Below, in pieces: positions 7,152 to 21,026 of a DNA stretch of 21,026 bases. Below the pieces are notes generated by a model, which worked only from the letters and a program-made list of their open reading frames with translations, had not been told where the DNA came from and searched no databases. The translations under genes were made by a program, and so were the position numbers. The stretch lies in IMG/VR virus record IMGVR_UViG_3300025168_000827, positions 1 to 21,026 of that record. The stretch is one strand, 5' to 3'. How positions within the stretch are numbered: the stretch's first letter is position 1; every line of letters begins with the position of its first letter. The DNA comes from a virus.

Positions 7152-7589
7152 ATGAAAATTATAAAAGTAGATAAAGAACTTATACCATATATGTGGTCTT
7201 TTGTTTCTGATCTTTTAGCTAAACCGTTAGATAGGAGTTTTGGAGAAACAAGATTAGAAGACATATATACTTATTTATGTGAAGGTTATCAAGATTTATG
7301 GATAGTTAAAGATACAGATAACTCTATACTAGTAGCTTGTAACGCACAAGTAGTAATATACCCTACTCAAAAAGTATATCAGATAATTCTTGTAGGAGGA
7401 GGTGGTTTTAAAGTTAAGGACTGGGTACATGAATGTTGGAAAGAAGATTCTTCTATTCTAGAATATGCTAAACAACAAGGATGTGTTAGAATAGAAAGTA
7501 TTGTTAGAGATGGTTTACTTAAAACTTTAAGTGGTTATGATTTTAAAAAAACAGGAACATTAGTTCATAAGATAATTGGAGAATATTAA
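7152..7589 (+). CDS. GNAT-like acyltransferase-fold protein, copy 1
   Basis: 145 aa. It starts directly after the previous TAA, in the same frame. It resembles the short phage GNAT-fold proteins found among internal virion genes: KPLDRSFGETRLEDIY near residues 24-39, a central beta region DLWIVKDTDNSILVACNAQV, and a C-terminal CVRIESIVRDGLLKTLSGYDFKK, where GNAT beta5/alpha4 and the 'GF' end of the fold would lie. The classic acetyl-CoA P-loop (Q/RxxGxG/A) is not obvious, so enzymatic activity is doubtful. A clear paralogue lies 416 nt downstream (8005-8433). The location suggests a virion or scaffold-associated role. Family placement is by pattern memory. Confidence 0.55.
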   Translation: MKIIKVDKELIPYMWSFVSDLLAKPLDRSFGETRLEDIYTYLCEGYQDLWIVKDTDNSILVACNAQVVIYPTQKVYQIILVGGGGFKVKDWVHECWKEDSSILEYAKQQGCVRIESIVRDGLLKTLSGYDFKKTGTLVHKIIGEY

Positions 7590-8005
7590 TGGGACAAGGT
7601 AGTTACATGCAAGGTAATCAACAGTTACCTATGCAGCAGCAACAGGCACAGTACTCACAACAGCCAACAGGTTTAGGTAAACAACCTTCTATGGCTTATG
7701 GAGGATTAAGCAGTCTTCCTGCTACTTCTCAATCTATGCCCACACCTCCACCTAACTTTACTGGTCTGCCTAATCCTGTTCCCCCTTTAGGTGCTATGCC
7801 TCCTGCTTTACCACCTTCAGTTCCTGCACCATCTATGATGGGAATGCCTACACCTCCACCACCTATGCCTTTACAAGCACCTATGATGATGCCACAACAA
7901 TCTGTAGATACAGTAATGATAGAAGATACAATGATGCAACCAACGAATACTACACAACCACAACCATTACCACCATATAGTCCTTTTAATACTAATGGAT
8001 ATTAA
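7589..8005 (+). CDS. Pro/Met/Gln-rich low-complexity protein
   Basis: 138 aa. The N-terminal third is Gln-rich (MQGNQQLPMQQQQAQYSQQP). The remainder is dominated by Pro and Met with runs such as TPPPPMPLQAPMMMPQQ. No known domain, signal or membrane helix. It is probably intrinsically disordered. It overlaps both GNAT-like neighbours by 1 nt (TAATG at each end), so its synthesis is likely coupled to theirs. An internal virion or assembly-linker role is possible; nothing in the sequence proves function. GGAG lies about 8 nt before the start. Confidence 0.6.
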   Translation: MGQGSYMQGNQQLPMQQQQAQYSQQPTGLGKQPSMAYGGLSSLPATSQSMPTPPPNFTGLPNPVPPLGAMPPALPPSVPAPSMMGMPTPPPPMPLQAPMMMPQQSVDTVMIEDTMMQPTNTTQPQPLPPYSPFNTNGY

Positions 8006-8433
8006 TGAACATAATAAGAATACAAACAAACTGCATAGAAGTTACTTGGCCTTATATTAAAGATTTCATACAGAAACCATTAGATAGAAGTATGGGAGAA
8101 AGAAATATAGAAGATATATATTACTCATTAATACATGGTCAACAACAATTATGGGTAGCAGTAGATGAAGAAGATGGTATGTTTGGAATATGCATTACTC
8201 AGATACTAGAGTATCCTAATTTTAAAGCATTATCAATGCCTCTTATTGGGACTAAACCGCATACAATTAAGAAGTGGTTTGATTATGGAATGTGTGATGA
8301 TTCTCCCATAATTAAATGGGCAAGAGAGTTAGGGATAAAAAGAATAGAAGGTTATGCTAGAGATGGTTGGTTAAAGATGACTAAGAAATACAACTTTAAA
8401 AAATACTACACTGTTATAACAAGGGATATATAG
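8005..8433 (+). CDS. GNAT-like acyltransferase-fold protein, copy 2
   Basis: 142 aa, a paralogue of the 145-aa protein upstream. Shared landmarks in the same order are KPLDRSxGE, (L/I)EDIY, QxLW near residue 50, a YP (about 73), W in the middle, S(I/P)I..A...G..RIE and RDG(L/W)LK, then Y.FKK at the end. Copy 2 has GIKRIEGYARDGWLK, closer to typical GNAT C-terminal motifs than copy 1. A canonical acetyl-CoA loop is not evident. It starts on the stop of the Pro-rich gene, and its TAG shares a G with the GTG start of the following gene. Likely arose by duplication; the role in the virion or host modification is unknown. Confidence 0.6.
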   Translation: MNIIRIQTNCIEVTWPYIKDFIQKPLDRSMGERNIEDIYYSLIHGQQQLWVAVDEEDGMFGICITQILEYPNFKALSMPLIGTKPHTIKKWFDYGMCDDSPIIKWARELGIKRIEGYARDGWLKMTKKYNFKKYYTVITRDI

Positions 8434-10772
8434 TGATGGACTTGAAAAATTTTGTTAATGATCTTACAATTACAGATAAGATTTGTCTGTATAATACTTT
8501 GTATGAGGAGTTAGCTTGTAAAGGTATTGACGGAGACACTGAACTTGCTCATGTTAATCAGCAAGAGATGGCAGTCTTGCGTGCAATGGGTGGTTCAGGA
8601 ACAATTAATCCTAATACTAATCTTGTACAATTTGGTGGTGGTGGTGCACCTCCTCCTCCTCCTCCAGCTGCTTCATCTACTGTTACTCAGCAAGCTACTA
8701 TTCCTGATGAACTTAAACCTTTTGTAACAGATATTCTTGAAAAGGGACAAGCTATTCAAGAACGAAGAGAAGATGAAGGATATGTACCTTTTGATGGTCC
8801 ACGTATCGCAGGTTTTTCTGAAGAACAAGAAGAAGCATTTACAGGATTACAGGGACAAGTAGGAGCGGGTCAACCATTCTTTGATATAGCTACTGGATTA
8901 ACTGCATCTAGTGCACAAGCACCTACTGCTGAATCAGTAAGTCAATTCTCAAATCCATTTATACAGAATGTTATAGGTATACAACAACGAGAAGCAGAAA
9001 GATTAGGTGATGTAGAACGTCAGCGGATTGGTGCACAAGCTGTAAAGGCAGGAGGATTTGGTGGTTCTCGTCATGCTATTCTTGAAGCAGAACAGTCTCG
9101 TAACTTACAACAAAGGTTAGGAGATATACAAGCACGTGGTAGTGCTGCAGCTTTTGAAGATGCACAAGCACGACTACAACAACAGCGTGATCGTGAAAGA
9201 CAGGCTGGTGCACAGTTTACAGGATTAGGTGCACAAGTTCCTGCTCAACGTATAAGAGAATTAACTGGTCTTGAAGCTGTTGGTGCACAACGTCAAGCAC
9301 AATCACAACGCGGTTTAGATATAGCACAAGATGAATATGAGATTGCAAGAACATTTCCTGAAAGAAGTTTACAAGATTATAATGCTATTGTAAGAGGATA
9401 TTCGGCACCTATTCCTGCCTCTACATTAACACGGACACAAAGTAGTACACCTGCCCCTTCGTTCTTGCAACAAGCGGCAGGAATAGGAGGATTAGCTTTA
9501 GGTGCAGGTAAAGCATTTGGTGGTCTTAACCAAGGTGGTTTGATTGCTTTAGCTGAAGGAGGAAAACCTGAAAAACCTTCTTTATTAGAAAAACAAGAAG
9601 AAGAGATTACAGAAAAAGCTAACAGAGAATCTTTATCTCAGGGTCAAGAATTTATTAATGAAGACTCTCCTAGATTTGAAGAAGAATTTTCACAAGTTCA
9701 AAATTTAGGTAGGCAGATAGGTAGAAGTATATTAGCTACTCCAGCAGAGTATGCTACTAAGCCGGGGCAGTCTACTCCCGGTGGAGCAGGAGGACAAGAG
9801 TTTAATGTGGGTGGTAACTTTGGCTTTAAGAAGGGAGGTTTAGTTACTTTAGCACAAGGAGAGATGGTAAGCGAAGCAGAAGAAGTGGAGGTAAAAGAAG
9901 AAGCGTTTTCTCCTGCTATAATGGATATGTTAGTTAAGCCAGCTAAAAGTTTGTATAAAAAAGCTGGACAGTATGTTGATAAAGCAGATGCACAATTTGA
10001 TGTAATAGGTGAAAATTTTGGAGGTACTAGAAAAGGATTAGAAGAGGCTAGAAAAAATTTAGAAGAGAAAAATAATATTCTAGGACAAGGGACTATCACA
10101 CCTGATCAAAAACAAAAACAAACAATCACTAAAGGAAAAGGTGGTCAGGAGGAACTTCTTAAAAACATTATGACAACAATAAATAGCAATAATAATTTAA
10201 GTAGTATATCAGATGTGATAGCATCACAAAAAGATGTGAATAAAGAACAAGCTAAACTTAGTGCAGAGAAAAGAAGAATCTTAGCAGCACAGAATAAAGA
10301 TATGGAATTTGGCGCATTAGATGTTGCTGCAGGACTATTGAAGTTTGCTGCCGCTGATCCAGAAAAACATACTACTCAACAACTAGCAATTGCGTTTGGA
10401 GATATGCCAGAGAAGATGCAGAATGATGCTAAAGAAAAGAGGGCAAATGAATTAGCTGTTGCTGGTTTAGATGTAGAGGATGCCAGATTAAAAGCTGATG
10501 GCGAGATGAAGATACTTACTCTTAATATTGCACTGAAAAAAGCAGCGGCTGCAGGAACATTAGAACCAAGGGATGTAGAATCTATTATAACATCTGTTCA
10601 ACAAAATCCGCCAGCAGCAAGAGCAATAGCTAACAGTGGTCGAGTAGATAGTGCAACTAAGAATGCTATACTTTCTGCTCTAAAAACTGTAAATAAAACA
10701 GAGGCAAATTCTAGAATCCCCTCTAAGGAAAATGTACGTCAGAATACTTCTATGAGGTTACAACCAAAATAA
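8433..10772 (+). CDS. Large internal virion protein with coiled coil and Gly-rich membrane-like motifs
   Basis: 779 aa. The start is GTG at 8433, overlapping the previous TAG by one base, with AAGGGA at 8421-8426; an ATG three bases later (8436) is equally possible. Residues 33-70 carry the module GDTELAHVNQQEMAV then GSGTINPNTNLVQF, related to that in the 878-aa protein. Next come a poly-Pro run (73-78) and a block around residues 174-250 with NPFIQNVIGIQQREAERL and GGFGGSRHAILEAEQSRNL, typical of marine phage internal proteins and strongly coiled-coil. The Gly-rich motifs NQGGLIALAEGG (367-378) and KKGGLVTLAQGEM (467-479) follow, with a charged C-terminal half. The function in DNA ejection is inferred from size, order and family pattern. 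Confidence 0.65.
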   Translation: MMDLKNFVNDLTITDKICLYNTLYEELACKGIDGDTELAHVNQQEMAVLRAMGGSGTINPNTNLVQFGGGGAPPPPPPAASSTVTQQATIPDELKPFVTDILEKGQAIQERREDEGYVPFDGPRIAGFSEEQEEAFTGLQGQVGAGQPFFDIATGLTASSAQAPTAESVSQFSNPFIQNVIGIQQREAERLGDVERQRIGAQAVKAGGFGGSRHAILEAEQSRNLQQRLGDIQARGSAAAFEDAQARLQQQRDRERQAGAQFTGLGAQVPAQRIRELTGLEAVGAQRQAQSQRGLDIAQDEYEIARTFPERSLQDYNAIVRGYSAPIPASTLTRTQSSTPAPSFLQQAAGIGGLALGAGKAFGGLNQGGLIALAEGGKPEKPSLLEKQEEEITEKANRESLSQGQEFINEDSPRFEEEFSQVQNLGRQIGRSILATPAEYATKPGQSTPGGAGGQEFNVGGNFGFKKGGLVTLAQGEMVSEAEEVEVKEEAFSPAIMDMLVKPAKSLYKKAGQYVDKADAQFDVIGENFGGTRKGLEEARKNLEEKNNILGQGTITPDQKQKQTITKGKGGQEELLKNIMTTINSNNNLSSISDVIASQKDVNKEQAKLSAEKRRILAAQNKDMEFGALDVAAGLLKFAAADPEKHTTQQLAIAFGDMPEKMQNDAKEKRANELAVAGLDVEDARLKADGEMKILTLNIALKKAAAAGTLEPRDVESIITSVQQNPPAARAIANSGRVDSATKNAILSALKTVNKTEANSRIPSKENVRQNTSMRLQPK

Positions 10773-15050: not shown

Positions 15051-15494
15051 TTATATGGCTTCGATTTCTTCTTGTTCCTCCTCAAACCACTTACATTGTA
15101 AGAAAATCTTAGATGATCTTTCTTCACCTAGTATTTCTAAACTTCTAACTATCTCATCCTCTAGTTCTGCAATTGATTTAGGAACTTCGTCATCTTTAGA
15201 TGTTCTGATCTTAGATAAAACTTCCAAAGCTTTAATTGCACTGTTCGTATGCCCATTATTCTTAGCATATGTATATTGATTTTCAATCTCAGTGATGACA
15301 TCAATATTAGTTTCTAATTCTTTTTCTAACTCTTCAATTCTTTCCTGTATATCATTACGCTGTACTAGTCTATGACCTTGTGTATGTGCAGACACATCAG
15401 AGTAACCAGCAATCTTAGCTGACTCAGTAGCATTCCTATATAAGACGTATGCTTGACAGAACTTTTCTTGTTTAAGATTTAATTCTTTAGTCAC
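15051..15494 (-). CDS. terS: Terminase small subunit (Terminase_2-like)
   Basis: 147 aa. The N-terminal LNLKQEKFCQAYVLYRNATESAKIAGYS and AHTQGHRLVQRNDIQERIEELE (residues 6-58) match the terminase small subunit pattern 'LT.KQ..F...Y....NAT.AA..AGYS..TA...G..LL....V...I' (PF03592 type), which binds the packaging site and hands DNA to the large subunit. A long acidic coiled-coil C-terminus follows, as expected for the oligomerisation part. The start is GTG at 15494 with GGGA 8 nt upstream; the ORF has no internal Met, and the family motif begins at about residue 6. It overlaps the outer spanin gene by 8 nt. The large subunit is not in this window, and this is the last gene of the minus run. Confidence 0.8.
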   Translation of the reverse strand: MTKELNLKQEKFCQAYVLYRNATESAKIAGYSDVSAHTQGHRLVQRNDIQERIEELEKELETNIDVITEIENQYTYAKNNGHTNSAIKALEVLSKIRTSKDDEVPKSIAELEDEIVRSLEILGEERSSKIFLQCKWFEEEQEEIEAI

Positions 15495-15693: not shown

Positions 15694-15811
15694 TGTCTAC
15701 TGCTACTTCTAGTTCTTTCTTTTTTGCACTATCTTTACCTGCTTTAAAAGCAAATACTAAAGGAAGTATTTTTGTAAAGAAGTTAAATATAGGAGAAAGA
15801 ATAGACCACAT
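15590..15811 (-). CDS. Inner spanin (Rz-like)
   Basis: 73 aa. A single N-terminal signal-anchor helix (about residues 4-21, LSPIFNFFTKILPLVFAF) is followed by a charged coiled coil (KDSAKKKELEVAVDNANERN, to about residue 50). The C-terminus LSDDDVSKQLRKRWRR matches the 'LSD..V...LR..W.R' end of phage Rz-like proteins. It spans the periplasm from the inner membrane to meet the outer spanin encoded inside its 3' half. The start overlaps the holin stop (TAATG). The assignment rests on topology, the C-terminal motif and the neighbouring holin and lipoprotein. Confidence 0.7.
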   Translation of the reverse strand: MWSILSPIFNFFTKILPLVFAFKAGKDSAKKKELEVAVDNANERNKIENKVNKLSDDDVSKQLRKRWRRGGIL

Positions 15812-16059
15812 TACTTTTCTTTTACTACCTTAATCTCACCTTTAACCATTGGTACTTCTTCTACTACTACAGGTTTAGTACCTGTTTGTTTTGCCTTGCC
15901 AACAGTAAGACTGAGAAACTCTACTGCTTTATATATCTTTCCGAGCATAGTATCTGGATCAGGTGTACGAGTACCTGCAATAAAGATACTGGCAATAGTA
16001 ATGATACCTGTAAGAGTAGGGACAATAACATCTAAGTTACTTGTGATATTTTCTAGCAT
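15811..16059 (-). CDS. Holin-like small membrane protein
   Basis: 82 aa. One predicted transmembrane helix (about residues 12-30, VPTLTGIITIASIFIAGTR) is followed by RTPDPDTMLGKIYKAVEFLSL and a Lys/Val/Glu-rich tail. The 'T.TPDP.T..GKIYK.VE.LAL..GKAK' motif occurs in putative holins of marine phages, as I recall. It is expected to permeabilise the inner membrane at lysis. Its position directly upstream of the inner spanin supports this. A strong RBS AAAGGAA (16066-16072) precedes the ATG by 6 nt. No endolysin gene is seen next to it; the only muralytic-like domain here is in the 878-aa virion protein. Confidence 0.65.
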   Translation of the reverse strand: MLENITSNLDVIVPTLTGIITIASIFIAGTRTPDPDTMLGKIYKAVEFLSLTVGKAKQTGTKPVVVEEVPMVKGEIKVVKEK

Positions 16060-16074: not shown

Positions 16075-18366
16075 TTAGGAGTTAAACGTACTGGAGTAGT
16101 GTTTTTTATTACCATGACGGGATGACAAATAAACTTCTTGTGCCAAGGTATTGTATTTAGCATAAAACTCTACGTTCATATCTATTTGAGGAGCATCAAA
16201 CAATTGTTCACAGTCTTGTGCCATTGCTAACAATTCCCCGGTAGTCCAAAATTCTTTTTCGTTCATCTCTACCTTCATGTGCTTAACCTTACCATCAAAT
16301 AGAGTTTCCTTTTGTTCTTTTTCAGAAATATCTGGAACAGAACAATCAAAACCAAAGAGATGAAAGTTTCTAAACCCAAAGATATGTAGCATACCTATTG
16401 CTCTCATGGCTGCACACGTACCGCCTGTAACAAAGGTTACATCATCAGGTATTTTAATTTGTTCTTCTTCAGGGTATTCTTCTTTATTATTTATTCTATT
16501 CTTAATAGCTTCTGAATAAGCGTGCCATCCATAGATATTAGATGTTCGTTTAATAATGTATTCAGTTACTGAAGGTTCGGTCATAGACGCAATAAAGAAT
16601 TTAGTGCTAGGGTCTATGTTCTCAAACAAACTTTTACGTACAATACCGTGAGTACTTTCTCCTTCAATGGTACGAGGATCAAGTATAACACAACCCCAAG
16701 GTTTTATGCCAGCCTCTAATAGTTTAGGATAGCTGTGCTTAACACATACTATCTTACCATTAGTCTTTGCTTGTAGTTCTTTTAACTTATCAAAGTCAAT
16801 AGACGAACCACCCGATACTATAATAGCATGTTCTGAATGTCCATAGTATTGTTGTACACTGTTCCAATTATCTATAAGTTTTAGATTAGCATTAATGTTA
16901 TCTACAATATCATCTTTAGGTACACAGTCTTTAGGATGTACGATGATAGGGATACGTCGAAGTTCAATTGGAATATCTTTTAACTTTGAATTATTAAGAA
17001 GGACAGCAAGGTGTACTAACCCACCACCGGAAACCTTATCCTGAGAAGGCAGTACGTGCATACGCTTACCTTCCATCTCGTCACGAATAAGTTTATTAAC
17101 GCCTACTTTTTCCTGAGATACTGTATGTCCATTCTCATCTTTAGAATAGAAGTCATCAAAGACAATGACAGGTACATGCTTTAGATTTTCGTAATCACTT
17201 TTAATAGTATCTTCACTATGACCACCATCAATAAAAGCAAAAGAAACTTTCTTTAATTCTTTCTTAGCTTTACTGAGTGTATCACGTGAGTTACCCTTAT
17301 GTAACTTAAAAGTAAATGTTTTGTTGTCTTCCTTCATCTTGTCAGCAAATTCTGTAAGACGATTAAAGACTGCATCATAAGTGTTGTGTTGTTTTATATT
17401 TAGTTCAAGGCTATCTGTTTCTGCTGTAGCATCCTCAAATAAATCAAAGCCAATGTAGTGAAATTTATTTATGTTTTCAAAGGAAGCTAGTGCCATTTCA
17501 ATTGCTCTACCTCCATTCCATGTACCAATCTCTACAATCTTCTTTGGTTTGTAGCATCGAACAAGTGTAGCAAGCTGTCCATAACGAGGAAGCACTACAT
17601 CTTTAGAGAATCCTTGTTCAGACATTACTTCATTCTTACGATCACCCTTATAGTGCATCATAAACTTGCTCAAAGAAGACTGTTCAAAGACAGCCAATCC
17701 TTTAGCATCCGGTGTAAGGTTATGAACCTTCATACCATGTGCTGCATATATGTTAATGAAGCGGGTCATAATAAAGGCATCAGTCCATTCACGATAAGCT
17801 ACAACTTCTCCAATGTCATAGCATCCTCGAATGTCTGCGAGAAAGTAGTGAGGCATTTGATAGTCAAGATTAAAAGCAATGAAGCCTGTCTCACTAAAGT
17901 CAATAGACGTTCTTCCAAGATGTACCAACTCTGAATCTTTAGGAAAAGACTCAAACAATATTTCTTCATTAAGCTTACTGTGTGTGATTACATCTGCATC
18001 CATCCAGATTAACCAACCACCTTTAATCTCATCTTCAGAAATTTCCATAAAGTAATCAGTCAAGGCGTATACTTTATGACACCACTTCAAAGCATCCATA
18101 CGCCAGTTGTATTCCATCTGACCATTCTCTGTGCCATCATGGTGCTTCATACGCTCAAGGTAAGCAGTACGATCTTCTACTAAATCTAAATCCCTATACT
18201 CGATGACAGGAGACTTAGGAAACTCTGCAATTTGTTCATCACTACACGTATCATAGTAAGCTACCAGCTTTAGATCATCTTCCCAATGTTCTACTACTGA
18301 CTCAAGCATACTCTTAGCATATCCGCTGTAGTTCTTTCCGCTGAAAGAGGTAACAAAATTAACCAT
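16075..18366 (-). CDS. Three-domain glycosyltransferase-methyltransferase-MAF (DUF115-like) fusion
   Basis: 763 aa. Domain 1 (about 1-245) is a GT-A-type glycosyltransferase: TSFSGKNYSGYAKSMLESV at the N-terminus, then WLIWMDADV with the metal-binding DAD at 123-125, and MHYKG at 237-241. Domain 2 (about 258-460) is a class I SAM-dependent methyltransferase (Methyltransf_24-like): IVEIGTWNGG (277-286), FIDGGH (378-383) and VFDDF (402-406). Domain 3 (about 510-680) resembles DUF115/MAF: AIIVSGGSSID (514-524), VILDPR (560-565), VTGGTCAAMRAIG (646-658) and HLFGFDCS (669-676). MAF proteins transfer nonulosonic acids to flagellin Ser/Thr. The fusion would add and methylate a sugar on some cell-surface, virion or host target; which target is unknown. 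It lies 2 nt after the GT8-like gene. Confidence 0.75.
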   Translation of the reverse strand: MVNFVTSFSGKNYSGYAKSMLESVVEHWEDDLKLVAYYDTCSDEQIAEFPKSPVIEYRDLDLVEDRTAYLERMKHHDGTENGQMEYNWRMDALKWCHKVYALTDYFMEISEDEIKGGWLIWMDADVITHSKLNEEILFESFPKDSELVHLGRTSIDFSETGFIAFNLDYQMPHYFLADIRGCYDIGEVVAYREWTDAFIMTRFINIYAAHGMKVHNLTPDAKGLAVFEQSSLSKFMMHYKGDRKNEVMSEQGFSKDVVLPRYGQLATLVRCYKPKKIVEIGTWNGGRAIEMALASFENINKFHYIGFDLFEDATAETDSLELNIKQHNTYDAVFNRLTEFADKMKEDNKTFTFKLHKGNSRDTLSKAKKELKKVSFAFIDGGHSEDTIKSDYENLKHVPVIVFDDFYSKDENGHTVSQEKVGVNKLIRDEMEGKRMHVLPSQDKVSGGGLVHLAVLLNNSKLKDIPIELRRIPIIVHPKDCVPKDDIVDNINANLKLIDNWNSVQQYYGHSEHAIIVSGGSSIDFDKLKELQAKTNGKIVCVKHSYPKLLEAGIKPWGCVILDPRTIEGESTHGIVRKSLFENIDPSTKFFIASMTEPSVTEYIIKRTSNIYGWHAYSEAIKNRINNKEEYPEEEQIKIPDDVTFVTGGTCAAMRAIGMLHIFGFRNFHLFGFDCSVPDISEKEQKETLFDGKVKHMKVEMNEKEFWTTGELLAMAQDCEQLFDAPQIDMNVEFYAKYNTLAQEVYLSSRHGNKKHYSSTFNS

Positions 18367-18368
18367 AT

Positions 18369-19112
18369 TTATTCTTGCCTTTCTTCTTGTTTCATCTCAT
18401 AGCATAGTTCTTGCCATTCTTTAGCATATAAATTATCTATATCTCTCTTGCCTTCCCAGTTCCTAAAGAGTGGTCCTCCTGTAGTAAAGTGTACTGCTTT
18501 AGGCTGTATACTCTCAGAACTATGGCCATCTAACCAATTCCATTTCTCGTTCAAGCTTCCAATATTTTCTGACCAATAAAAGGAATGTAACCAAGCACCT
18601 GATTTAGTATTAACATCTGATACTGTTAGTTCATTTTCTATTTCAGGATGATCACAATTCCATAGAACAAAGCTTGACCAGTTCTTTCTAAAATAACTTT
18701 GTTGTAATTTACCATCCATCTTTTTCTTATCATTAGGTACATAGGTATGCTTCACACAAGAAACAGCATTAGTCTTAGTATTATTGTGAAAGACTTCCAT
18801 GATATCTCCGCGAACAAACATATCACAGTCCATGAATAAAGCTTGACCATCTAAATGGTTTAGAAAAGGTACAAGAAATCTTGTAAAACTAAACTCAGTT
18901 GAAAAAGGTTTACGATCAAAGACATCTACTTCCTGTCCGTTATCTAGTACACCGTTCCTGTGGTACATACCCATACGTCTTAGCTTATCTTGTTTAATAG
19001 GTACTATATTAATAGGTTCAGAAGAATATTTCTTAATAGAATATTCTAGTACCCTATAGTATAGGTCTTCTTTAGGATCATATCCAATATATATTGTAGG
19101 TAATCTACTCAT
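18369..19112 (-). CDS. GT8-like glycosyltransferase
   Basis: 247 aa. N-terminal IYIGYDPKEDLYYRVLEYSI and FSFTRFLVPFLNHLDGQALF, followed directly by the metal-binding DCD of MDCDM (DxD at about 93-95), match GT-A-fold family 8-like glycosyltransferases of phages and bacteria. The C-terminal KAVHFTTGGPLFRNW is the HxTxGGP-type motif that closes the nucleotide-sugar pocket. Expected to use a UDP- or CMP-sugar in the cytoplasm; acceptor unknown. It is the first gene after the promoter at 19154-19182, with GAGAAAGG (19117-19124) four bases before the ATG. It lies 2 nt from the three-domain protein downstream, so the two glycosyltransferases are co-transcribed and probably act in one pathway. Confidence 0.75.
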   Translation of the reverse strand: MSRLPTIYIGYDPKEDLYYRVLEYSIKKYSSEPINIVPIKQDKLRRMGMYHRNGVLDNGQEVDVFDRKPFSTEFSFTRFLVPFLNHLDGQALFMDCDMFVRGDIMEVFHNNTKTNAVSCVKHTYVPNDKKKMDGKLQQSYFRKNWSSFVLWNCDHPEIENELTVSDVNTKSGAWLHSFYWSENIGSLNEKWNWLDGHSSESIQPKAVHFTTGGPLFRNWEGKRDIDNLYAKEWQELCYEMKQEERQE

Positions 19113-19187: not shown

Positions 19188-19754
19188 TTATTGAAAAGGT
19201 TCACCTCTAAACCAACAGACTAAAGAACATCGCTCTCCTTCTTTTACTTTAGTAACACGATGGAACATGAAGGACGGAAATACCGTTATACTTCCTATCC
19301 TACGCATGTCTTTTAGAGTAGAGAATTTCTTACTGTCTTGTGGATGTACCCAATCTTGTATCTGAAAATCTCCTCCTTTAAAATTATCATCAAGAGTTAC
19401 ACTCATAGAAAGTTTTCTTACATATGTATCAGATACAGTCTCTACCCCGGTATCCATATGCCAATTATAGAATTGACCTTTACCATAAAAGGAAACTTGA
19501 GGTGTCTCGTAACAATTAATATTAAAGTTCCAACCAGCTTCTTGATTAGCTTTCTCTGCATACAGTTGTAATATGCTGGTCAGTTCAGGATTTTCTAACC
19601 ATGCAATCCTGTTGTTTCTAACCTCTTTCATTTTAATATCGTTGCCTTCTTTATAAACTTTAGCCTCATCCTTATCTAATTCTTTCCCAATGTTAGCTAA
19701 ACCTTTACAAAGTTCTTTAGGTAACTCGTCTTTATAAGAACAATAAGTATGCAT
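19188..19754 (-). CDS. 2-oxoglutarate/Fe(II)-dependent oxygenase (PKHD-like)
   Basis: 188 aa. The jelly-roll iron triad is visible: NWHMDTG gives His99 and Asp101, and FMFHRV gives His165, with Arg175 in GERCSLVCWF as the 2-oxoglutarate anchor. Supporting motifs are FYGKGQFYNWH (about 89-99), LSMSVTLDDNFKGGDFQ (115-131) and TVFPSFMFHRVTKVKEG (157-173). This matches the 2OG-FeII_Oxy/prolyl 4-hydroxylase-like family common in marine phages; it hydroxylates an unknown small molecule, protein side chain or nucleobase. Its ATG overlaps the RNR stop (TAATG), with GGAG (19759-19762) as RBS, so it is coupled to RNR expression. No signal peptide, so cytoplasmic. Confidence 0.8.
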   Translation of the reverse strand: MHTYCSYKDELPKELCKGLANIGKELDKDEAKVYKEGNDIKMKEVRNNRIAWLENPELTSILQLYAEKANQEAGWNFNINCYETPQVSFYGKGQFYNWHMDTGVETVSDTYVRKLSMSVTLDDNFKGGDFQIQDWVHPQDSKKFSTLKDMRRIGSITVFPSFMFHRVTKVKEGERCSLVCWFRGEPFQ

Positions 19755-21026
19755 TAAACTCCGCAGCTGCCTCCGTGTCCTGTGATGTCACAAATATCAT
19801 GTGTCTCTAGTCCTTCTTCAAACTCTTCTCCTAACTTAGCAACAGCTTCCTTGTAAGGTACAGTTGTTAATGGCTGCCCACCTCGACATGAGTCAGGGTA
19901 TACAGTAAAGCCACGTAAGCGGTGTGCGTAAGAGGCAAGAGTGTTAGTAAAATCATCAACAGTATCTTCATTGTTTAGCTTACTGCCCCATGATGGTAGA
20001 TTAATAGTAGAAGAGATGGACATATCTACATAGTCTTGTACGTCAGCTTGAAACTTCATGCGTCTTTTATAATCTTCTGCAAGATCAAGAGCAGACTCAA
20101 TGTCATCTGGCTTAGTATCGTATAGGTCAATTAATTCTTGTGCTGCACTGTCTACTACATACTGATAGTGCCAACGTGTACCACCTTTTAAATACCTACG
20201 CTTGTAGGCTACAGCATATATAGGTTCTACCCCTGTGCTTGTTCCAGCAAGGATGCCAATGCTTCCTGTAGGTGCAATAGCACGATTAGCTACTGGCCTA
20301 CTAACTTCCATTTCATCAGCAGTCTTCCTAGAAATATCATCACTCACTCCCTTATAAACTCCAAGCCATTGATGCAGTTCATCAGTTACTTCATAACTAG
20401 ACCCACGCTTGATAAGCCACTCGTGCATACCCATTAAACCAAGACCTAGCCTACGATTTTTATTACGTACATCGTACACTTTCTGATAGGGAAGCTTTGC
20501 CTTGAGTGTACCACACATAAGAAACTTTGTAGCTAGTGCTACTATATCTTTAAATTCTTTTATTGTATCTACTCTGCCAAGGTTAACCGACCCTAAATTA
20601 CATACGTCTGAATCTGATTCGGATGTTACTTCTGTACAAGCGTTACGAAGTGTTTCATTTTCTTTATCAAAGAAGTTAAAACTAAACCCCGGTTCAGCGG
20701 TCTGTAAGGCTTGGCGGGTATTCTGCTTAAAAGTATTCCCCACATCTCCTGTCTCCCAATAGTTTAATAGCCATTCAGTATCGTAGTTCACACTAATATT
20801 TGTCATATCCATTGGTGCGACAAAGTTAAAGTCTTGTTCCTTAACCTGACCAATAGTAAAACCTGTGCTACCAACAGGCATCTCATACCAGTTTTTACTA
20901 GTAAGAAACTTATCAATGTCGGCATGTTTCCAATTAAGACTAGCATAGATAGCAGACCTACGGCTACCCCCTTGCATAACCCTTCGACCAATTTCATTTA
21001 TCATTAGCATCTTTGGTATAGGTCCA
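19754..21026 (-). CDS. Ribonucleotide reductase, C-terminal part, probably adenosylcobalamin-dependent (partial)
   Basis: About 424 residues, open to the right edge; the frame reads on upstream of the Met at 21010 (residues numbered from it), so that Met is internal. Family motifs are RNACTEV (122-128) with the central Cys125 and Glu127 of the NxCxE active site, DVCNLGSVNLG (135-145) containing a second Cys, RRLGLGLMGMHEW (186-198) and APTGSIGILAGTSTGVEPIYA (246-266). The C-terminal cysteines 407 and 416 (DICDITGHGGSCGV) are the redox pair that re-reduces the active site. The pattern reads most like class II (B12) phage enzymes rather than class I NrdA, but the distinguishing N-terminal part is outside. 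Supplies dNTPs for phage replication. Confidence 0.8.
   Translation of the reverse strand, partial: GPIPKMLMINEIGRRVMQGGSRRSAIYASLNWKHADIDKFLTSKNWYEMPVGSTGFTIGQVKEQDFNFVAPMDMTNISVNYDTEWLLNYWETGDVGNTFKQNTRQALQTAEPGFSFNFFDKENETLRNACTEVTSESDSDVCNLGSVNLGRVDTIKEFKDIVALATKFLMCGTLKAKLPYQKVYDVRNKNRRLGLGLMGMHEWLIKRGSSYEVTDELHQWLGVYKGVSDDISRKTADEMEVSRPVANRAIAPTGSIGILAGTSTGVEPIYAVAYKRRYLKGGTRWHYQYVVDSAAQELIDLYDTKPDDIESALDLAEDYKRRMKFQADVQDYVDMSISSTINLPSWGSKLNNEDTVDDFTNTLASYAHRLRGFTVYPDSCRGGQPLTTVPYKEAVAKLGEEFEEGLETHDICDITGHGGSCGV

Follow-up and report, generated by a model that had tools for sequence, protein, structure and literature searches.

MAF proteins are flagellin nonulosonate transferases in motile bacteria. 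The core of the Maf proteins resembles the sialyltransferase Cst-II, and their N-domain is weakly methyltransferase-like (PMC11339370). The same core fold and Pfam family are found in archaeal MptE, a stand-alone pterin enzyme (6-hydroxymethylpterin diphosphokinase). Multi-domain viral glycan enzymes are known as well, the nearest by domain content being A064R of the chlorovirus PBCV-1, a 638-aa protein of the order GT-GT-MT that uses its three domains to attach two rhamnoses and one O-methyl group to the PBCV-1 capsid glycan; PBCV-1 also encodes GMD (PMC9614988). Virion glycosylation by phage glycosyltransferases has been described in mycobacteriophages (Freeman et al. 2023, cited in PMC10877033 and PMC12619734).

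The DNA analyzed here is an IMG/VR virus contig of 21,026 bases (the window), on the minus strand of which lies an ORF of 763 codons that runs from an ATG at 18366 to a stop ending at 16075 (16075..18366, stop included) and contains no internal stop. The initial annotation had seen in its product a GT-A domain, a methyltransferase and a MAF-like fold joined in one phage chain, and Pfam, Foldseek and the intact ORF confirm this three-domain fusion. Like A064R, the protein appears to be a single soluble chain made up of a GT-A domain, a sugar O-methyltransferase and one more transferase domain; A064R differs in belonging to an alga-infecting virus, in the order of its domains, in having no MptE/MAF domain and in having a known target, the major capsid protein. 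We propose, with about even confidence, that the phage protein is a soluble, cytosolic glycan-decorating enzyme with three active sites, made by marine podovirus-like phages, with a virion protein as its likeliest target, and by analogy it may work as A064R does, building and capping a glycan with one chain. The present combination of domains and its genomic setting are not described in the literature that we searched.

Domain organization of the 763-aa protein

All features of the window given below are on the minus strand. Domain 1 (residues 1-245; 17632..18366) is assigned by Foldseek and by phage homologues as a GT-A glycosyltransferase of GT6/GT8-like type, with a predicted DxD nucleotide-sugar/metal site, DAD, at residues 123-125 (17992..18000) that is present in 42 of 43 ORFs. 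Residues 1-245 of the window copy match no Pfam family, glycosyltransferase families included, and Glycos_transf_2 was found for domain 1 in two of 27 family members (best E=0.07), so that the domain is GT-A-like as judged from its model, with no match to a CAZy/Pfam GT family. Domain 2 (residues 246-458; 16993..17631) is a predicted class I SAM-dependent O-methyltransferase of the COMT/TylF type, assigned by Foldseek and by PF13578 (Methyltransf_24), which covers residues 278-398 (E=1.6e-9, 39 bits against a cut-off of 26.3). It carries the SAM-binding motif I, EIGTWNGG (residues 279-286; 17509..17532; 43 of 43 ORFs), FIDGGH (378-383), of which DGGH (380-383; 17218..17229; 42 of 43) is the predicted catalytic/metal site, and FDDF (403-406). 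The sugar O-methyltransferase profiles TylF and RMNT_CmcI are weakly matched by domain 2 in several members, a likeness that hints at a sugar-methylating enzyme.

Domain 3 (residues 459-763; 16078..16992) belongs to the MptE-like/MAF_flag10 superfamily according to Pfam, AlphaFold2 and Foldseek. PF01973 covers residues 488-677 (E=8.1e-17, 62 bits against a cut-off of 34.6) and is matched by all 27 family members. The sequence VSGGSS (residues 517-522; 16801..16818) aligns with G.GPS of Maf and with GGGPS of a solo prophage protein, and thus represents the 'GxGPS' loop of the superfamily, and the stretch from TGGTCA (647-652) to FGFD (671-674), at 16345..16428, lies in the conserved C-terminal half of PF01973. 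Every motif quoted in the initial annotation was located in the 763-aa translation.

Structure models

By sequence, the PDB yielded no significant match to the whole protein, to the full alignment, or to domain 1 or domain 3, which made structure comparison necessary. A full-length AlphaFold2 model built from 27 diverse members has a mean pLDDT of 79, which indicates folded domains, and a pTM of 0.48, too low to fix how these are arranged. Foldseek comparison of this model with the PDB returned three kinds of match, namely Maf (5mu5, E=6.5e-8), GT-A glycosyltransferases of the GT6/GT8 type (LARGE1, alpha-1,3-GalT, BoGT6a and glycogenin; E 1e-7 to 9e-6, probability 1.00) and COMT-like O-methyltransferases (SafC, COMT, 3tfw and 3duw); the GT6 matches include 4ayl, a bacterial enzyme described as metal-independent. 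A separate model of domain 3 (pLDDT 79, pTM 0.79) matched 5mu5 at E=2.5e-7 and archaeal MptE 8sd5 at E=1.4e-6, and below E=0.001 it matched only 5mu5 and archaeal MptE (8sd5/8sbu), followed by SteA and thiamin pyrophosphokinases. Since no GT6/GT8-kind GT-A enzyme occurs among the best 50 matches of domain 3, the GT-A matches of the full model belong to domain 1. In the full model DAD directly follows a predicted strand (residues 118-122), and EIGTWNGG starts where the predicted strand 276-280 ends, the place expected for such a motif. The MAF-like character assigned earlier to domain 3 holds in the predicted structures.

The third domain and the Maf/MptE superfamily

The initial annotation also credited domain 3 with MAF-like activity. 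Understood as the transfer of nonulosonate to flagellin, this would have the domain use a CMP-nonulosonate and alter the host flagella. The shared MAF_flag10 core fold, with 5mu5 as the best solved match, speaks for such a role. A Rossmann-like domain precedes the core in both Maf and the phage protein; this resemblance may be old, and the flagellin role should not be carried over with it. The flanking domains of Maf are missing: Pfam found no match to a Maf N-terminal profile in the three-domain protein, only about 85 residues follow the PF01973 match, there is no Maf C-terminal domain, and upstream stand a GT-A domain and a genuine methyltransferase instead. The score against the NCBIfam model PseD is 27.5 bits compared with a cut-off of 670, a value to be read with the fact that the full-length Mafs tested also score below that cut-off, which makes a tree the stronger test. 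PF01973 matches were taken from 289 alphaproteobacterial genomes. They are of two sizes, long Mafs, mostly of about 610-720 aa but in some cases above that, and short genes with products of 265-320 aa. The domain-3 profile scored 32-68 bits with the short genes L106, L113, L084 and L085 and 2-24 bits with flagellar-type alphaproteobacterial Mafs, and in the tree the phage domain 3 groups with these four and L112 on a branch split from the alphaproteobacterial Mafs with a support of 0.98. There is also no flagellar context, and no nonulosonate or CMP-sugar gene was recognised near the three-domain gene; the sugar genes found are gmd and ColD. Lacking the Maf flanking domains and grouping with short stand-alone MptE-like genes, domain 3 is, judged by its sequence, a member of the Maf/MptE superfamily and not specifically a flagellar Maf, and a flagellin nonulosonate transferase is very unlikely. 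The earlier reading thus stands as far as glycan modification by three domains is concerned and fails for the flagellar role of domain 3. As to a pterin function, domain 3 shares its fold with archaeal MptE; MptE differs from domain 3 in being a stand-alone enzyme, the identity between the two is 15-17%, and no folate/methanopterin gene was recognised in the neighborhood.

Two of the stand-alone relatives of domain 3 were placed in their genomic setting. The L106 gene belongs to a prophage, where it is flanked by a terminase gene and a head-tail connector gene and has sulfotransferase genes beside it. The L084 gene is part of an LPS locus, with a heptosyltransferase gene on one side and an O-antigen ligase gene on the other. 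Such a prophage, with sulfotransferase-like genes and a stand-alone MptE-like gene in that position, is found at L081:7485-10056 (G086). Two neighbor assignments made by eye, an N-terminal methyltransferase in L071 and the phage context of L083, lack a Pfam match and do not enter the evidence.

Relatives of the single domains in phages and bacteria

Stand-alone homologues of domain 1 are encoded by the Pelagibacter phage Mosig (Mosig_00189) and the podovirus ct7QV12; they are 24-27% identical to domain 1 and retain DxD, SE.GF and H.KG, and in both phages the gene stands beside separate methyltransferase/GT genes. In Mosig EXVC030M (00191-00188) the domain-1 homologue adjoins a GT8-like homologue and is preceded by two methyltransferases, an arrangement that recalls the fusion and its neighbor. 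However, the Mosig genes are separate, their methyltransferases are of the FkbM type and, unlike in the fusion, no MptE-like domain was found among the neighbors scanned. None of the phages with a host record matches domain 2 or 3. Two further candidates were rejected: gp162 of Caulobacter phage C1 has a partial MptE-like match below the cut-off (23.9 bits) and no BLAST similarity to domain 3, and the neighbor of the GT8-like gene in Synechococcus phage S-SCSM2R is not a domain-1 homologue.

Distribution and conservation of the fusion

A first scan gave 11 near relatives of the three-domain gene and a second gave 49 loci in viral contigs; one further relative came from a MAG labelled Sneathiella, the contig of which is itself phage (RNR, terminase small subunit). 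Forty-two related loci were read, and each contains a full-length ORF, uninterrupted by stops, of about 742-781 aa; they lie in marine phage contigs, show 41-100% identity and retain all three domains. The uncommon all-in-one enzyme of the initial annotation is hence a one-chain fusion indeed but no lone oddity, being carried throughout a marine phage group. In a tally of 43 ORFs, which includes a second copy on contig G002, the DxD, SAM motif I, DGGH and domain-3 motifs were each retained in 40-43; apart from one divergent member, the few misses reflect narrow search patterns (e.g. GGTCS for GGTCA). Comparison with five close relatives (dN 0.01-0.12, dS 0.3-2.1) gave a dN/dS of about 0.03-0.13 per domain, so that all three domains are under purifying selection.

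The divergent member (L051:5992-8337, on a phage contig binned as Sneathiella) has NTN for DAD, NIEE for H.KG and GGGN for DGGH. The predicted catalytic residues of domains 1 and 2 are thus lost in it while the domain 3 motifs are intact, indicating that the three activities are not obligately coupled. With NTN in place of DAD, the glycosyltransferase of this member need not be dead, since the GT6 match 4ayl reportedly works independently of metal. On the same contig a separate methyltransferase-like gene comes after the three-domain gene, at 8294-8959. Contig G002 (IMGVR_UViG_3300025168_000039, 106,894 bases) carries two different three-domain copies, one near 46 kb and the other near 101 kb. 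Each copy has a phage-like gene order around it, and the contig probably consists of two phages joined in assembly.

Except for the phage contig G001, the full-length fusion was absent from two samples of 385 and 398 proteobacterial genomes (~780), in which single-domain relatives are present. The BFVD contains a 714-aa protein of an uncultured Caudovirales phage, A0A6J7X5Q0, that probably represents the same fusion, as it can be aligned from end to end with 29% identity; it is already in UniProt, uncharacterised and with an automatic name only. The phage proteins A0A6J5PVH5, A0A6J5L5C1 and A0A6J7XC21 are automatically named MptE-like and have mainly that part in common with the fusion. A fusion of this kind has therefore probably been deposited before, but we met no description of it in the literature searched, and the open-access literature gave no report of phage MptE-like or DUF115 proteins of such a kind.

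Gene neighborhood and sugar supply

The three-domain gene has a near-fixed place in the order RNR - (2OG oxygenase) - (Hsp20) - GT8-like - three-domain gene - (small ORF) - terminase small subunit. Directly upstream, and apparently co-translated with it, is a gene for a GT8-like glycosyltransferase of 247 aa (18369..19112), which occurs in all 26 loci that have enough upstream sequence; in most clades its end runs 4-8 nt into the three-domain gene, and the spacing in the window is 2 nt. The match of the window gene to PF01501 is weak (E=0.0043), and the 40%-identical Mosig_00188 exceeds the cut-off with 30.9 bits. A possible origin of domain 1 and the GT8-like gene by duplication is not supported, a profile comparison of the two giving a probability of 10% over 59 columns around DxD. 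Downstream lie a conserved small ORF of 82 aa (15811..16059) and the conserved terminase small subunit gene (15051..15494; PF03592, E=1.8e-15). An Hsp20/IbpA-like gene stands between the 2OG oxygenase and GT8-like genes in many relatives (L006-L033) and is absent from the window phage.

Further upstream are a 2OG-Fe(II) oxygenase gene in the same direction (19188..19754; PF13640, E=2.6e-13; present in 22 of 26 loci) and the gene of the ribonucleotide reductase large subunit, which is cut at the window edge (19754..21010; full ORF L002:4251-5936). An oxygenase and an RNR adjoining glycosyltransferases might suggest DNA hypermodification, with sugars put on phage DNA bases, and DNA-modifying phage glycosyltransferases are known (cited in PMC12619734). 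However, among the replication genes examined, which are those for a T7-like primase-helicase, PolA, ThyX and T7 endonuclease I, no base-hydroxymethylase, TET/JBP-type oxygenase or DNA base methylase was recognised, and the GMD/ColD enzymes together with a sugar O-methyltransferase suit glycans better, so that we consider this explanation scarcely probable. Taken with the structural genes, the replication module points to a phage of podovirus-like type, about 45-57 kb in size.

The sugar genes of this group are best seen on a second contig, L002, which shares 11,968 nt with the window (99.95% identical) and runs on to a gmd gene (L002:1109-2140); given this overlap, the phage population of the window has gmd itself. 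Its product scores 498 bits against TIGR01472 (equivalog cut-off 415), and all main-clade contigs long enough to span the region have a gmd that exceeds this value. It lies upstream in most main-clade contigs and downstream in the L036/L043 clade; no gmd was found on the contigs of L045 (15.7 kb) and L051 (33 kb) or beside the second G002 copy. In a sister clade of about 66% identity, gmd is directly followed by a gene for ColD (GDP-4-keto-6-deoxymannose 3-dehydratase), located at L015:1317-2528 (IMGVR_UViG_3300030406_002209) and on sister contigs. This ColD has the active-site signature in which His-His replaces the PLP lysine (FFSHHI, FFSHHIQTMEGG), and its best match is 2gms (E=2.3e-100), with perosamine synthases far behind at about 1e-27. 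By homology, gmd and ColD equip a phage for the initial two reactions of colitose synthesis; ColC (reductase/epimerase) was not recognised, and the open-access literature holds no report of phage-encoded colitose. As far as gene content can tell, the genomic setting is one of supply of a GDP-6-deoxy (or 3,6-dideoxy) sugar.

Proposed function and acceptor

In the scheme that we infer for donor, order of steps, domain 3 chemistry and acceptor, a short glycan would be built by the three-domain protein together with the neighboring GT8-like enzyme. Domain 1 would draw on a GDP donor supplied by the phage GMD (and ColD in the sister clade) to add a sugar, probably a 6-deoxyhexose; domain 2 would O-methylate a hydroxyl of the added sugar as a cap; and domain 3 may transfer or anchor another sugar or a phospho-group onto the acceptor. 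The likeliest acceptor would be a phage virion protein made in the cytoplasm, with a host envelope glycan as a close second.

With the same enzymology directed at the host envelope, LPS/O-antigen sugars would be changed in infection, for example blocking re-adsorption or superinfection. GMD and ColD are O-antigen sugar enzymes, the stand-alone relative of domain 3 in a bacterial LPS locus points the same way, and in one alphaproteobacterium a domain-1 gene stands immediately before gmd. Most known phage O-antigen modifiers, however, use a membrane-bound glycosyltransferase, a flippase or a polyprenol-linked enzyme, and among the genes examined no membrane flippase, membrane-bound or lipid-linked glycosyltransferase, or polyprenol-linked enzyme was recognised; nor was any integrase or lysogeny gene in the stretches examined. 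We therefore regard the host envelope as a possible but somewhat doubtful target and, because no membrane-bound sugar enzyme was recognised, favor virion proteins by a small margin. The three-domain gene belongs to the module on the replication side, opposite the structural genes, and thus has no tie to any one virion protein.

A bolder version of virion glycosylation, which we offer as speculation and think rather unlikely, is that a self-contained phage glycan pathway (GMD with or without ColD, the GT8-like enzyme and the fusion) coats the phage's own virions with a methyl-capped 6-deoxy or 3,6-dideoxy sugar. Such a pathway would be a bacterial-virus counterpart of the chlorovirus capsid-glycan system, and its MptE-like domain would be a new type of protein glycosyl- or glycosylphosphotransferase.

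If our proposal is true, a widespread group of marine phages produces rare sugars for itself and needs a single enzyme with three sites to build a capped glycan from them. Virion or envelope glycosylation would then extend past mycobacteriophages and chloroviruses, some members of the large MptE-like/DUF115 group of phages would gain a function, and a compact enzyme would be at hand for preparing methylated 6-deoxy-sugar conjugates. The reading is directly testable, as it names three predicted active sites and the proposed sugar donors.

Other features of the contigs

The structural module of the window contains two paralogous small proteins of ~142-145 aa that fall in the same cluster (7152-7589 and 8005-8433) and flank a proline/glutamine-rich ORF of 138 aa. 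At the end of another phage contig, a transposase-like ORF (IS4 type by eye; L067:10492-11760) marks an insertion or an assembly joint.
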